Shown here one piece after another: positions 15,203 to 22,506 of a DNA stretch of 64,000 bases; positions within the stretch are counted from its first letter, which is position 1; the number at the start of each line of letters is the position of its first letter. A program made the translations under genes and the position numbers. A model generated the notes under the pieces. That model ran no database searches, had not been told where the DNA came from, and saw only the letters and a program-made list of their open reading frames with translations. This DNA comes from Acidimicrobiales bacterium (GTDB lineage: Bacteria > Actinomycetota > Acidimicrobiia > Acidimicrobiales > SHLQ01): the NCBI GenBank assembly GCA_020628865.1, contig JAHDEJ010000005.1, positions 62,001-126,000 of the forward strand, written 5' to 3'.

Positions 15203-15901
15203 TCAGAGATGGAGGATGGGGCTTGCGCGAAAGTTGGGGGCGCCGCCGAGCGCCGCGGTGACGGAACGGGGGACCGAAATATCGGCCAGGAGAAGCTCGC
15301 CGACCGCAGGATGATCTCGAAGACCGGTCTTCGGCAGACACAGAGTCATCGTCACATCGGCCTGCACCGCCACCCCGGGCACCTCGCCCGTGGTGACGTT
15401 CACGCCGCTTGGATTGTCCAACGAGACCACCGGCCCGTTCGCGGCGACCGCCTCGATCAGCTCCGCCGATCGTCCACGGGGAGCCCCTCGCAACGAGTAG
15501 CCGATGATCGCGTCGATCGTGACGTCAGCTGCGGGCAGCTCCGGTCGGGCCTCGACGCCCATGCGGGTGAGCACGTCGAACTGATGCCGCGGAACCGGCG
15601 TCAATCGTTGGGGCGAGGTGACCACGACGGACACGTCGATGCCGGCATTCGCAAGGTGCCGGGCCGCGACGAGACCGCCGCCACCGTTCCCACCGGTACC
15701 GGCCGCCACGGCAACGGTCGTCGGAGCGAACACATCGATCACCACGCGGGCAAGATTGCGGCCGGCGTTCTCCATCATCTGGAACAGGGTGATGTCGAGG
15801 TCCTCGATCATCACTCGGTCGACCTCGATCATCTGCTCTTCAGAGATCCATCCGACGGAGGCACGATCGATTCGCGGGTAGGGACGTGCTGGATCGGTCA
15901 T
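15203..15901 (-). CDS. NAD(P)H-hydrate epimerase-like protein (YjeF N-terminal domain)
   Basis: A 232-residue stand-alone YjeF_N domain, without the C-terminal ADP-dependent dehydratase half of bifunctional Nnr. It carries the nucleotide-binding segment with GTGGNGGGGLVAARHL and the later DAIIGYSLRGAPRG and SLDNPSGVN motifs. Compared with classical epimerases (NNGGDG), the potassium-site Asn and Asp are replaced by Gly, a variation I recall from a common stand-alone subfamily; epimerase activity is therefore likely but not certain. Start ATG 15901 shares one base with the malic enzyme stop, so the two are co-transcribed. Confidence 0.8.
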   Translation of the reverse strand: MTDPARPYPRIDRASVGWISEEQMIEVDRVMIEDLDITLFQMMENAGRNLARVVIDVFAPTTVAVAAGTGGNGGGGLVAARHLANAGIDVSVVVTSPQRLTPVPRHQFDVLTRMGVEARPELPAADVTIDAIIGYSLRGAPRGRSAELIEAVAANGPVVSLDNPSGVNVTTGEVPGVAVQADVTMTLCLPKTGLRDHPAVGELLLADISVPRSVTAALGGAPNFRASPILHL

Positions 15902-17547
15902 CAGATCACCGGGCCGTAGTCGGGAGTCCATCGCAATTCGTCGATGCGTTCGTCGAGCTCGGCGTCGGTTCGGGCGGGCGCCAGCCCACTGTCCCGGGCC
16001 ACTCGTGCGACCGCTCGGGCGATGCGGAGGGACACGTCCGGGACATCGGTGAGTGGAGGGAGAACGCCGTCGTGGACCTCGCCGCCACCGTTGGGGTCAG
16101 CGACCGTCTGGGCGGCCACCATCAACATCTCGTCGGAGATCTCGGTGGCCTCGGCGGCCACCACACCCAACCCGAGACCGGGAAACACGTACACGTTGTT
16201 GGACTGCGAGATCGTGTGCGCTACGCCCGCGACCATGACGGGGTCGAATGGCGACCCGGTCGCCACGACAGCTCGGCCGTCCGTCCAGGCGAGCAGATCG
16301 GCGGGGACCGCTTCGGCGCGGCTCGTCGGATTCGAGAGCGGCATGATGATCGGTGCATCGCAGTTGGCGGCCATCGCTCGAACGGCGGCTTCGGTGAAGA
16401 GGCCGGGCACGCCGGACACGCCCACGAGGACGGTCGCCCGATGTTCGCGGACGGCGGTCTCGAGCACGTCGGTCGAAACGTCGGCCCATGAGGCGATTCG
16501 TTCGTATGGATGGGCGAGATCGACCTGATGTGCCCGCAGATCTGAACGACGATCGTGGACGATGCCGTCGGCATCGATCAGCACGATGTGGTCGAGCGGG
16601 TCGGCGACGCCTGCAGCGGCGAGTGCGTCGTGGAGCATCGAGGCGATACCCGTGCCGGCCGAGCCGGCGCCAAGGATGCAGATCCGTTGATCGGCGAGTG
16701 ATCCACCCGAGGCGTTGACTCCCGCCTGAATCGCGGCAAGCGAGACGGCGGCCGTCCCCTGGATGTCGTCGTTGAAACTCAGGATGCGGGAGCGGTGCCG
16801 CTCCAACAGTCGAGTGGCGTTGTGCTGGGCAAAGTCCTCCCATTGCAGAAGGACTCCCGGCCACCGACGTTTCACCTCGTCGACGAACTGATCCAGATAC
16901 GCGTCGTACTCCTCGGGTGAGATCCGTGGCTGGCGCATGCCGAGATAGGAGCTGCCGTTGAGCCGATCGGGGTTGTTCGTGCCCACGTCGAGCGTGATGG
17001 GCAGCGTGCGCGCTGGGTCGATCCCACCGAAGGCGGAGTAGAGACTGAGCTTGCCGATGGGAATGCCCATCCCTCCGGCCCCCTGGTCGCCGAGGCCCAG
17101 AATGCGTTCGCCGTCGGTCACCACGATCACGTCGATGTCCCGGTCGACCGACGAAAGCTGCTCGCGCATCCTCGAGCGGGAGTCCCACGAGAGGAACAGC
17201 CCGCGCGGTCGCCGGTAGATCCGACTGAACTCCTGCGTCGCTCGCCCGACCGTCGGTGTGTAGACGATGGGCAGTGTGTCGGCGAGGTTCTCGCGAACGA
17301 AGCGATGGAAGAGCACTTCGTTGCTGTCCTGCAGGGCGCGCAGATAGATGTGCTGTTCGAGCGGATCCTCGAAGCGGTCGAACTCATGCCGGGTTCGGTG
17401 GAGTTGCGCGTCGATCGTTTCGACGGCCGGTGGAAGGTGTCCCTCGATCCGCAGAATCCGGCGCTCCCGCAGCGTGAAGGCGGTGCCCTTGTTGCGCAAC
17501 GGGTCGTTGAGGATGTCCTGTCCCTCGTGCAGGGCGGAGCTGTTCAT
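15901..17547 (-). CDS. NAD-dependent malic enzyme
   Basis: A 548-residue long-form malic enzyme. It shows LPIVYTPTVGRATQEFS with the catalytic Tyr, GERILGLGDQGAGGMGIPIGK, the substrate lysine segment, the metal-binding WEDFAQHNA and FNDDIQGTAAV (Glu/Asp ligands), and the NAD-binding ILGAGSAGTGIASML. It oxidatively decarboxylates malate to pyruvate. The ATG has a GGAGG ribosome binding site 4 nt upstream. It is the first gene of a pair with the hydrate-epimerase-like gene, a sensible partner because both concern NAD(P)H pools (inference). Confidence 0.95.
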   Translation of the reverse strand: MNSSALHEGQDILNDPLRNKGTAFTLRERRILRIEGHLPPAVETIDAQLHRTRHEFDRFEDPLEQHIYLRALQDSNEVLFHRFVRENLADTLPIVYTPTVGRATQEFSRIYRRPRGLFLSWDSRSRMREQLSSVDRDIDVIVVTDGERILGLGDQGAGGMGIPIGKLSLYSAFGGIDPARTLPITLDVGTNNPDRLNGSSYLGMRQPRISPEEYDAYLDQFVDEVKRRWPGVLLQWEDFAQHNATRLLERHRSRILSFNDDIQGTAAVSLAAIQAGVNASGGSLADQRICILGAGSAGTGIASMLHDALAAAGVADPLDHIVLIDADGIVHDRRSDLRAHQVDLAHPYERIASWADVSTDVLETAVREHRATVLVGVSGVPGLFTEAAVRAMAANCDAPIIMPLSNPTSRAEAVPADLLAWTDGRAVVATGSPFDPVMVAGVAHTISQSNNVYVFPGLGLGVVAAEATEISDEMLMVAAQTVADPNGGGEVHDGVLPPLTDVPDVSLRIARAVARVARDSGLAPARTDAELDERIDELRWTPDYGPVI

Positions 17548-17565: not shown

Positions 17566-19179
17566 TCAGGAGACCCCGACACCGCCGAAACGAATTCCCG
17601 TGAGATCGGCCATCTGGCGATCGAAAGTGGTGAGGTCGTCGGGGGTGAAGTCGCTGAGCGAGGTGTGGCCGCAGGCGCGGGCCAGGACCTCCATGAGTTC
17701 GGTCGATGCCTCGAAGTAGTTGCCGAGCCGTTGCGCCGCCTCGTCGATCATGAGGCGTGCTCGCAGGTCCTTCTTCTGGGTCGCGATGCCGACCGGACAG
17801 TTGTCGGTGTTGCAGGCTCGCATGCCGATGCAGCCGATGGCCTGCATGGGAGCGTTCGACAGGGCGATGGCGTCGGCGCCGAGGGCGAGGGCCTTGGCGA
17901 AGTCGGTGTGGGTTCGGAGTCCACCGGTGATGACGAGCGTGATGTCCTCGCGACCAATGCGGTTCAGATGGGTGCGCGCTCGCGCCAATGCGGGAATCGT
18001 CGGCACGCTGATGTGGTCTCGGAAGATGGTCGGCGCGGCACCGGTTCCGCCGCCCCGTCCGTCGAGGATGATGTAGTCGACACCGATGCGGAGGGCCGCG
18101 TCGATGTCGGCCTCGATGTGTTGGGCCGACAGCTTGGCGCCGATGGGGATTCCGCCCGAGGCTTCCCGAACCTCGGCCGCCACACGTCGGTAGTCGTCCT
18201 CGGTGGTGAGGTCGGGAAACGTGGCGGGGCTGATGGCGTCTTCGCCCTCGTTGAGTTCGCGGACCTCCGCGATCCGTCCCTGCACTTTGTTGCCGGGCAG
18301 GTGTCCGCCGGTTCCGGTCTTGGCGCCCTGGCCGAACTTGAAGTGGAAGGCCTGCACCTTGGTGACCTTGTCGAGCGACCATCCGAACCGTCCGGAGGCG
18401 AGTTCGTAGAAGTAGCGGGAGTTTGCGGCCTGTTCTTCGGGCAGCATGCCGCCTTCTCCCGAGCAAATCCCGGTTCCGGCGAGCTCTGCTCCCTTCGCCA
18501 GGGAGATCTTGGCTTCTTCGGACAGTGCGCCGAAGCTCATGTCCGACACGAACAGGGGGATGTCGAGCTGGAGGGGACGTTCGGCGTTGGGGCCGATGAC
18601 GACGTTGGTGCTGATTTCGACGTCGTCGAGGAGGGGTCGTCGAGCGAGCTGAGCGGTGACGAACTGGATGTCGTCCCACTTCGGCAGCTGGTCGCGGGGG
18701 ACGCCCATGGCCGTGACGGGGCCGTGGTGACCCATCTTCGACAGTCCGTCGTTGGCGAGTGTTCGGATGAGCCCGACGTGTGGTTCGTCCTCGGTGCCGT
18801 GGTGATCCTGCCAGGCACCCTGGTAGGAGGTTCGGTCGTAGGGCTGCGGGTTGTCCTTCTCCCATGTGAGGATCTCCTCGGCGTCGACCATGACGTTGCC
18901 GTCTTCGATCCACGATGCGAAGCGGTGGAGTCGTTCATCGTTGTTGTAGGCGGAGATGCCGGTGCGGAATCCGTAGTCCCAGCCGTGCAGACCGCAGATG
19001 AGGTCATCGCCACGCACATGTCCGTCCGCCATCATCGCGCCGCGATGCAGGCAGCGTCCGTAGAGCACCGAGTGGTTGTCGTCCCACCGGACGATCACGA
19101 GGTCGACGTTGCTGACGAGCGCTCCGACCGGTTCGCGATCGGGGACGTCATTCCAGGTGGCGATGGACAGTGGTTGCAT
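17566..19179 (-). CDS. Rieske domain fused to glutamate-synthase-like FMN oxidoreductase
   Basis: A 537-residue protein with two parts. Residues about 1-100 form a Rieske [2Fe-2S] domain with CLH and CGLH ligand pairs separated by 17 residues. The rest is the FMN-binding glutamate-synthase alpha-subunit barrel: FVSDMSFGALSEEAKISLA, GEGGMLPEE, the flavin segment AKLSAQHIEADID, the DGRGGGTGAAP phosphate loop and a cysteine cluster MRACNTDNCPVGIAT for an iron-sulfur centre. No amidotransferase domain is present, so free ammonia or another acceptor is likely. ATG 19179 has a GGAGGT ribosome binding site. The true substrate is unknown. Confidence 0.88.
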   Translation of the reverse strand: MQPLSIATWNDVPDREPVGALVSNVDLVIVRWDDNHSVLYGRCLHRGAMMADGHVRGDDLICGLHGWDYGFRTGISAYNNDERLHRFASWIEDGNVMVDAEEILTWEKDNPQPYDRTSYQGAWQDHHGTEDEPHVGLIRTLANDGLSKMGHHGPVTAMGVPRDQLPKWDDIQFVTAQLARRPLLDDVEISTNVVIGPNAERPLQLDIPLFVSDMSFGALSEEAKISLAKGAELAGTGICSGEGGMLPEEQAANSRYFYELASGRFGWSLDKVTKVQAFHFKFGQGAKTGTGGHLPGNKVQGRIAEVRELNEGEDAISPATFPDLTTEDDYRRVAAEVREASGGIPIGAKLSAQHIEADIDAALRIGVDYIILDGRGGGTGAAPTIFRDHISVPTIPALARARTHLNRIGREDITLVITGGLRTHTDFAKALALGADAIALSNAPMQAIGCIGMRACNTDNCPVGIATQKKDLRARLMIDEAAQRLGNYFEASTELMEVLARACGHTSLSDFTPDDLTTFDRQMADLTGIRFGGVGVS

Positions 19180-19198
19180 TGGTGACCTCCGGGTCGGT

Positions 19199-20461
19199 TC
19201 AGGTGCGCTCTCCGCGCATTCGACTTTCGTTGACGGTTTCGGCTTCGGGCATGTCGTCGTCCATGACACCGTGCTCCGAGAACCAGGCGCCGTAGCGGGT
19301 AGCCAGCGGCGCCGCCGTGATGCCGTGGAGCACGACGGAAGCGAGGATGACGAGCACGACGACGGAGAACAGGTCGTCGGCGGTGTCGACGCCGCCTTCG
19401 GTCACAACGAGCAGTCCGAACAGCATCGAGGCAAGGCCGCGTGGTCCGAACCATCCCATGAACGCAACGGTGGGTGCCTTCAATCCGGTGCCGATGAGCG
19501 AGATCGCCACCGGCATCATCCGGCCGAGTGTCAGCGTGCCGAGTGCGCACAGGATGACGCCGGGGCTGATGACCTCAATGGCAGGGATGACGAGCAGGGC
19601 TCCGAAGAGAATGAAGGTGATGGACGCGCCGATCTGGCCGATGTCTTCGGCAAGCTCCGTGCGTTTGGCTACGTCGGGTCCGAGCCGGTACCGAGCGAGA
19701 AGTCCGCACGCGAAGGCGGCGAGGAACCCGTTGCCACCGAGCACCTCGGCTCCGGAGAAGGCGGCGAGCCCACACCCGAGGGCGACGAGGCGAAGGCCTT
19801 CTCCGTCGGTCCATTCCAGCCGTTTCACGGTCGGGACGAGTTGGGCCAGCGCGAGGGCGGCGACGGCACCCACGCCGACGCCGATGGCGATCTCTCGGAG
19901 TGCTTCGCCGACGAGGGTGTCGACGCTCTCGATTTCGGAGCCGGCAACGACGGCGAGCAGCAGGGTGAAGACCGGGACGACCAGCCCGTCATTCAGGCCG
20001 GACTCCACGTTGAGCGCCTGTCGGATTCGCACCGGAACCGCAGGGTTGGTGACGACGGCCTCGCCGAGCGCGGCGTCCGTGGGGGCGAGGATCGTGGCGA
20101 CGAGCGCAGCCTGGGCCCAGGTCAGGTCGGGGAGGAGGAGTCGCGTCACCAGGGTTCCGAGCGCGATGGTCATCGGGAGGCCGAACGCAAGCAGGCGCGC
20201 GGGCAGGCCGAACGAGAGCCGGTCGGCGCGTGTGTCGATGCGCGCCGCGTCGGAGAACAACACGAGGGCCAGGGTGAGCTCGGCGATGAGGACGACGGTT
20301 TCATCCTCGAGGTTCAGGTCGACGAGGCCGAGGAGCTCGGGGCCGAGTACGAGGCCGGCGGCCACGTAGAGGATCGGCGGTGTGATCGGCAGGCGTTTGA
20401 TGCGCACCCGCACGAGCGAGACGAGCGCGAGGACGATGGCGAAGACGGCGAGGTCAGACAC
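19199..20461 (-). CDS. CPA1-type Na+(K+)/H+ antiporter
   Basis: A 420-residue polytopic membrane protein with about 11-12 hydrophobic helices. The CPA1 ion-site motifs are visible: LAPTDAALGEAVV (the TD pair) and ESGLNDGLVVPVF (the ND pair). It exchanges a monovalent cation for protons across the membrane and helps pH and salt balance. A short acidic cytoplasmic tail follows the last helix. The start overlaps the end of the upstream channel-like gene by 8 nt, so the two are translationally coupled. Confidence 0.92.
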   Translation of the reverse strand: MSDLAVFAIVLALVSLVRVRIKRLPITPPILYVAAGLVLGPELLGLVDLNLEDETVVLIAELTLALVLFSDAARIDTRADRLSFGLPARLLAFGLPMTIALGTLVTRLLLPDLTWAQAALVATILAPTDAALGEAVVTNPAVPVRIRQALNVESGLNDGLVVPVFTLLLAVVAGSEIESVDTLVGEALREIAIGVGVGAVAALALAQLVPTVKRLEWTDGEGLRLVALGCGLAAFSGAEVLGGNGFLAAFACGLLARYRLGPDVAKRTELAEDIGQIGASITFILFGALLVIPAIEVISPGVILCALGTLTLGRMMPVAISLIGTGLKAPTVAFMGWFGPRGLASMLFGLLVVTEGGVDTADDLFSVVVLVILASVVLHGITAAPLATRYGAWFSEHGVMDDDMPEAETVNESRMRGERT

Positions 20462-21512
20462 GTGGCACCTCGAGGTCGTCCCAATGGCTGCGCACGTCGC
20501 CCACCAGTGCCTGGAGGCCGGTGAGGGCGTTGTCGTAGTTGACGCGCCAGCCGACGAAGTGCTCCCAAGCGTCGTCGCGATCGACGTCGATCGAGACGCC
20601 GCCGTGTTCGATCCTCGCCCAGAGCGCGTCGAACTGCTGGCGGGAGATCGACACCTGATTGCGATCCCGTGGTGCTCCTTCGGGCTCGATGCCGTAGAAG
20701 TCGGCGATCGATCGAAGCGCCAGGTAGCCGGATCGGATCATCGTCTCCGCCTGACCGGTCCGGGGGAGGATGTGCGTGCAGGTGATGAACGACGCGGTGT
20801 CGAGCGCGGTTTCGGCGGCCGCGAGCCATGAACGGTCAGCGCGGGCCGACCGGAAGTAGATGAGTGCCGGAAAGCTGGTGTGGGTTTCGGCGAGCTCAAC
20901 GAACCACTCTTCCCACTCTTCCCAGCGGGCGCCGACCTGATCGAGACGTCCGATGAGGTGGAGCCGGGTGAGAAATTCGGTTGGCGTCGGGGGTTCGCCC
21001 GCTCGGATGGTCAGTTCTCCAACGGCGATCTCCCGGTGAGAGAACGTGGTGTAGAGCGTCGGCAGGAAGCTGATCACGAACGCGACGAGCGCAAGCCCGA
21101 GGAGCGCCTCGACGATGGCGATCATGCGCGTGAGGAACGTGGGTGCCTGGGTGAATCCGAGCGTCGTCAGCGATGAGCCGGACAGTTCCACGGCGTCGAG
21201 CCACGACCCGCCGATGATGCCCCAGTAGATGCCGGAGAAGGAGACGATCACGCCGATGGACCAGATGACCGGAAGGCAGATGAGCACGATGGGAGCGAAC
21301 GATCCGAGGATGCGGTGACGGGTGGCTGGGGACGAACTCCGTCTCGCCCGCCAGTGCGCAATCCGTCGTGCGATCCGAAAGGCCGTCGTCGTGATCCACA
21401 CGCGTTCGGGTCGGGGGATGACCATGGTGCGCACGGCCGATGCGAGAAACCATGCGGCAGCAATCGCCCCGACCACGACAGCGCAAACGCGTGCAGCGAT
21501 TTCGACCGTCAT
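20454..21512 (-). CDS. Ion-channel-like membrane protein
   Basis: A 352-residue protein with hydrophobic segments near residues 7-27, 70-98 and 130-155, followed by a soluble C-terminal half of about 190 residues rich in Trp and Glu. Between the last two helices lies GSSLTTLGFTQAP, which resembles a potassium-channel pore loop (TTxGYG) with Phe for Tyr, so a tetrameric cation channel is plausible but unproven. Coupling to the cation/proton antiporter gene supports a role in ion homeostasis. I do not know a named family for the soluble half. Confidence 0.75.
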   Translation of the reverse strand: MTVEIAARVCAVVVGAIAAAWFLASAVRTMVIPRPERVWITTTAFRIARRIAHWRARRSSSPATRHRILGSFAPIVLICLPVIWSIGVIVSFSGIYWGIIGGSWLDAVELSGSSLTTLGFTQAPTFLTRMIAIVEALLGLALVAFVISFLPTLYTTFSHREIAVGELTIRAGEPPTPTEFLTRLHLIGRLDQVGARWEEWEEWFVELAETHTSFPALIYFRSARADRSWLAAAETALDTASFITCTHILPRTGQAETMIRSGYLALRSIADFYGIEPEGAPRDRNQVSISRQQFDALWARIEHGGVSIDVDRDDAWEHFVGWRVNYDNALTGLQALVGDVRSHWDDLEVPRV

Positions 21513-21540: not shown

Positions 21541-22506
21541 TCAGGAGCGTAGGCGTGCGGCGAGGTCGGTCATGGAACCCGGTGTCGGAACCCCGGTGGC
21601 GTCGAGGATGCGGTTCATCATCTCGAAGTTGCCGACAGCGCCGGCCACCGCAGCGGCACCTGCGGCGCCCAGGGAGTCGGTCAGTTCGTTCCGCGCGTCG
21701 GGAAGTCGATCGGTGTGTTCGACCAGCGCCCGCGTGAAGCGAATGATCGCATCTGCTCCCGGCGCGCCCGCGGCCTGGGTGGCGTCGACGATGGCAGCGA
21801 GATGCAGGGGATGGTCGGTGTGTTCGATGCTCGCACGGAGCATGCCGGCATGGGCCGCCGTTCAATAGACGCAGTGGTTGATCCACGACGTGGTTGTGGC
21901 CGCCAGCTCCATCTGCCACCGCGGAATGTCCTTCACGATCGTGAGGTCGGCCATTTCCGCATAGTGGAGGTAGAGGGCTCCGTGAAGATCGGCTTGGGCA
22001 GCATCTTCGGCGGCGACTGCCGAGAGCGCGGTCGTCGCTCCGGCCGCGCCGATCATGGGAACGTGAGCGGACCGGCGCTTCGCCGCTGGCTCGACCAGTC
22101 GGGATGGCTGCCCCTCGATCGGGGATGGCAGCGGCGGGGCCGGCTCGGATCCGATGCCCCGGAGGGTCGTGTCCACGGCGACGAGCCGGGCCGTGATTCC
22201 GACCAGTTCGACGTACGCCTCGAGCTGAACCCCGTGTTCGACGAGTGCGTCGACGGCCGTTCGGTCGATTGCGTGTGGTGCCGTGGCGACGCGTGCAGCG
22301 ATGTCCGTGACCGCAGGGTGAAGCGCCGTGGTCGGGGCGTCGGACCCGTGGGTGGCGGCGCGCGCGACCGTGGCGATGGCCACCCGTTCGGCTCCCGTCC
22401 ACCAAGTGCCCGGCTGCGCCAGGCGGGTCCACTCCCGCTGCATTCCGCCCAGCATCGACGGACGCAGTGAACGTCCGGATTCGCTGATCGTGAAGCTGTC
22501 GGTCAC
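21541..22506 (-). CDS. AhpD/carboxymuconolactone-decarboxylase-like candidate selenoprotein (in-frame TGA)
   Basis: Read through a TGA at 21864-21862, the frame gives 321 residues with Sec at 215. Around it the sequence is INHCVY-U-TAAHAGM. Cys212, U215 and His219, plus Glu200 twelve residues before Cys212, reproduce the spacing of the AhpD active site (Glu118, Cys130, Cys133, His137 in the M. tuberculosis enzyme). The N-terminal half looks like a second, degenerate copy of the fold. The GTG start at 22506 has an AAAGGG ribosome binding site. A hairpin with a loop G lies at the right distance after the TGA. The alternative is a pseudogene cut by a nonsense mutation. Confidence 0.72.
21827..21843 (-). 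promoter_or_regulatory. SECIS-like hairpin after the in-frame TGA
   Basis: In the mRNA, AUGCUC and GAGCAU form a perfect 6-bp stem with the 5-nt loop CGUGC. The second loop base is G, 26 nt after the UGA, within the window usually required of bacterial SECIS elements, which need a G in the first two loop positions. The element is inside the reading frame, as in bacteria generally. Confidence 0.55.

Follow-up and report, generated by a model that had tools for sequence, protein, structure and literature searches.

The 64,000-nucleotide window analysed here, from a member of the Acidimicrobiales, contains on its minus strand a gene whose reading frame runs from a GTG at 22506 to a TGA at 21541 and is open apart from a single in-frame TGA at 21864-21862 (codon 215). 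There are 214 codons upstream of this TGA and 106 downstream, and when the two parts are joined by reading the codon as selenocysteine (Sec), the product has 321 residues, followed by the stop. The features discussed below are the following.

21541..22506, minus strand: predicted coding sequence of an AhpD-related selenoprotein of the NF041238 family, 321 residues, with TGA read at codon 215 and the final TGA stop included
21862..21864, minus strand: in-frame UGA, predicted selenocysteine 215, in the motif N-H-C212-V-Y-U215-T-A-A-H219; TGA in 42 of 43 homologues, TGC in one
21827..21843, minus strand: putative bSECIS hairpin AUGCUC / CGUGC / GAGCAU, +19 to +35 after the UGA, with the loop G at 21836 (+26)
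21628..21951, minus strand: AhpD-like (CMD/peroxidase-related) catalytic domain, approximately residues 186-293, assigned by Pfam CMD at 186-242 and by a profile comparison with solved AhpD-like structures
20454..21512, minus strand: next gene downstream, 352 aa, unmatched in Pfam and NCBIfam, 28 bases past the selenoprotein stop; it also adjoins the orthologue in L020

The original prediction had placed the interrupting TGA and counted the codons on either side of it correctly, as is confirmed on the minus strand. It had also expected that standard annotation would yield two broken genes. A plain ORF caller does split the gene, into a 262-codon ORF that stops at the TGA and a 100-codon ORF beyond it; however, this outcome is not inevitable, as the Sec-read product passes the NCBI model NF041238 with 219.2 bits (cut-off 175) in a full-length match covering model positions 4-347 of 357. 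Within the protein, the Pfam CMD domain scores at the Pfam cut-off, and nothing in Pfam matches the N-terminal half. Scanning the composition of the window for further genes with in-frame TGA codons returned only a gene boundary at 17568; the scan is insensitive, having missed the selenoprotein itself.

Conservation around the in-frame TGA

Homologues were drawn from a species-genome collection and from a sample of 395 genomes belonging to the same class, giving an alignment of 43 proteins including the window's own; they were picked by search score, belong mostly to one class and come mostly from draft assemblies. In the column of residue 215, 42 of the 43 genes carry TGA and one carries TGC (Cys), with no other residue present, while all 43 proteins share Glu200, Cys212 and His219. 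The nearest orthologue, L020, is 83% identical and comes from a separate assembly, the record of which is titled uncultured Acidimicrobiales bacterium; it has the TGA in the same place, and the gene order around it matches that around the window gene. Compared with this orthologue, dN/dS is 0.135 before the TGA and 0.283 after it, the latter value arguing that the downstream part is kept as protein. The two ratios indicate that purifying selection acts on both sides of UGA-215, somewhat more weakly after it than before.

A pseudogene, that is, an ordinary Cys-type AhpD-like gene broken by a nonsense mutation or an assembly error, would account for the stop codon in the frame and for the slightly faster evolution of the 106 downstream codons, but its probability is negligible: it is effectively refuted by the TGA, which is conserved in the same column in many families of the class as well as in a separate assembly, and the downstream dN/dS, the conserved SECIS bases and the Sec machinery of the genome all speak against it as well.

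The sole Cys member found, L058 (G247:C4:32179-33117), has lost the hairpin bases that the TGA members share, though its genome has selA. Across the class sample, NF041238 is found above its cut-off in 74 of the 395 genomes and selA in 259; among the NF041238-positive genomes, selA is present in 66 of 74 (Fisher p 6e-7 against the overall frequency). The eight positive genomes without selA are all listed as at most 90% complete, so that a missing gene is unsurprising there. Shorter AhpD-like matches, with frames of about 190 residues, were seen in G005, G011, G017 and others (family f34, genus g88), whose genomes measure about 1 Mb. Where in-frame TGA codons are listed for these frames, nearly all have one, and the genomes mostly contain selA.

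The SECIS hairpin and the decoding machinery

Bacterial SECIS elements are modelled with a loop of 3-9 nt, a stem of 4-16 bp and a UGA-to-loop distance of 16-37 nt, with a G within the first two loop positions that is often followed by G or U (PMC13188914). The window hairpin has a 6 bp stem and a 5-nt loop that starts at +25, with G as loop position 2. Stem, loop and the G at +26 are all present as the original prediction had described them, but the weight placed on them was too great for one sequence. The local fold has a z of +0.42, meaning that its single-sequence stability is no better than that of shuffles, and when the same peptide was recoded synonymously 20000 times, an equivalent hairpin arose in 1969 cases (about 10%). 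Taken alone, the hairpin of the window sequence is weak evidence and proves little.

The argument holds at the level of the family. All 42 TGA members have CUC at +22 to +24, G at +26 and GA at +30 and +31, and 39 of them have U at +27, although T makes up 12.5% of the third codon positions in the downstream parts of these genes. Meanwhile, the codon holding the loop GU encodes R, S or G in the TGA members, and the next one A, E, W, L, S or V; the SECIS bases are fixed while the encoded residues vary, so that conservation here lies in the RNA and not in the protein. The three innermost stem pairs are near-invariant and therefore give no covariation signal. The outer pair, +19/+35, can form in 22 of 42 members compared with 12 by shuffling, a comparison in which the shuffles ignore relatedness. 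It is thus family conservation that makes the hairpin convincing across the 42 TGA genes, which are related and do not amount to 42 independent cases. A pattern search of the genome for the SECIS core found, besides the three AhpD genes, one site on contig C74, which we regard as a chance match, as the backward control gave three matches.

The window's own genome (5.36 Mb, a draft of 113 contigs) was searched for the Sec decoding genes, and selA, selB, selC and selD were all found. The tRNA-Sec scores 65 bits, above the Rfam cut-off, and ARAGORN confirms it as tRNA-SeC(tca); selA (436 aa) and selB (574 aa) have frames that overlap by 4 nt. The selD gene (L018:1501-2424; G000:C106:117069-117992) has an in-frame TGA of its own in the motif GAG-U-GCK, at the position of the catalytic Cys17 in E. 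coli SelD, and the SelD of this genome is probably itself a selenoprotein. Downstream of the selD TGA, a GC-rich hairpin begins within a few bases. Selenoprotein genes that contain TGA thus number at least four in this genome with its full Sec machinery: three related to AhpD, and selD. The original prediction had pointed to the decoding genes and to the homologous residue as the places where a selenoprotein reading could be checked, and both support it.

The DNA taken alone would also be compatible with a UGA that is read without Sec, either by a near-cognate tRNA (e.g. for Trp or Cys) or under a reassigned code. Such decoding is very improbable here given the tRNA-Sec with anticodon UCA and a hairpin that has, like bSECIS elements, a G at a fixed distance and GU in its loop; moreover, the selenoprotein gene itself terminates in TGA.

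The AhpD-like domain and its predicted activity

The order and spacing of the catalytic residues had likewise been predicted correctly: read from the translation, Glu200, Cys212, the TGA at 215 and His219 follow the 12-3-4 spacing of the AhpD-type set of Glu, Cys-x-x-Cys/Sec and His. In M. tuberculosis AhpD (PDB 1gu9, 1knc), we take the corresponding residues to be Glu118-Cys130-Cys133-His137, in the numbering of the original prediction. That enzyme shares the Glu-Cys-x-x-Cys/U-His arrangement with the window protein, whereas it has Cys in place of Sec and only 177 residues. Against solved AhpD-like structures, the family profile matches 6k40 best (6.7e-14) and 1gu9 weakly (0.005, residues 193-227). 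TIGR00777, the AhpD equivalog model, does not match the window protein at E up to 1 and weakly matches only 3 of 26 family members. An AlphaFold model, computed with three sequences as input, has a mean pLDDT of 50, too low to judge the fold.

Read together, the data make it very probable that the product of the gene is a bacterial selenoprotein belonging to NF041238. The hairpin starting 19 nt past UGA-215 would recruit SelB-GTP with Sec-tRNA(Sec), and the codon would be decoded as selenocysteine to yield the 321-residue protein. In the AhpD-like domain of its C-terminal half, Cys212 and Sec215 would then make up a redox-active CxxU pair and Glu200 and His219 a proton relay as in AhpD, and the protein would reduce peroxides or act as a thiol/selenol oxidoreductase. 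That Sec is inserted in vivo and that the protein is catalytically active we infer from sequence, and the residues Cys212-x-x-Sec215, Glu200 and His219 suggest peroxide reduction as the most likely reaction.

But what if the selenoprotein mainly does something else? A Se-dependent thiol-disulfide reductase, or an enzyme of the CMD/AhpD fold with another substrate, would differ from our preferred reading in function only. The CMD superfamily is varied in its activities, which leaves room for such a role. The activity of the NF041238 family itself appears to be uncharacterised, as no paper assaying it was found in a collection of open-licence articles. In addition, the genome contains two further full-length NF041238 members with the TGA at the same site (L052, G000:C92:674-1666; L053, G000:C44:216560-217453). 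In the family tree, each of the three copies sits on an old branch of its own, which suggests different roles. On the other hand, the AhpD set of Glu, Cys, U and His is complete and invariant in the TGA members. We consider a mainly non-peroxidase function a serious possibility, though the less probable one.

A divergent member of a known family

Within the family, the window copy groups with L020 as a separate pair, with CVYU in place of the usual CFYU and His in place of Glu/Asp ahead of the Cys, departures that weigh against our preferred reading. It would be enticing to see in this divergent subgroup, with its operon-like neighbourhood, a selenoenzyme with a new activity other than peroxidase, and in the three paralogues enzymes with distinct substrates, but we judge this unlikely. 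The gene at 20454..21512 is a possible operon partner of the selenoprotein gene; its 352-aa product looks membrane-bound. Elsewhere in the window, the gene at 17566-19269 combines a Rieske domain with a glutamate-synthase-type domain in one fusion, and a malic enzyme gene (15901-17547) comes immediately after it.

The family is already known, and the protein is not new as a kind. Four sequences with a CXXU motif were described as "hypothetical protein 1" in a Sargasso Sea study of 2005 (PMC1088965), and a 2026 review lists this group as "AhpD-related protein", NF041238, CxxU (PMC13188914, Table 1). A literature search by model and domain names found no paper dedicated to NF041238. With the definition of that model, AhpD_rel_CFYUT, "alkylhydroperoxidase-related (seleno)protein", the window protein shares the full-length match over the cut-off, the CxxU motif and the bSECIS after the UGA; it departs from it in reading CVYUT, in the His before the Cys, and in being one of three divergent paralogues. 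A second group, the AhpD-like CxxU selenoproteins, is listed under TIGR01926 (PMC13188914; see also PMC1088965, PMC2398784). Its members likewise have CxxU in an AhpD-like domain with Sec at the second Cys position, whereas the window protein has an extra N-terminal half compared with the 178 positions of TIGR01926 and scores 53 bits against a cut-off of 81.8.

The window gene is thus a further member of NF041238, from an Acidimicrobiia-like genome, and its analysis confirms as one selenoprotein gene what a plain gene caller would report in two pieces.
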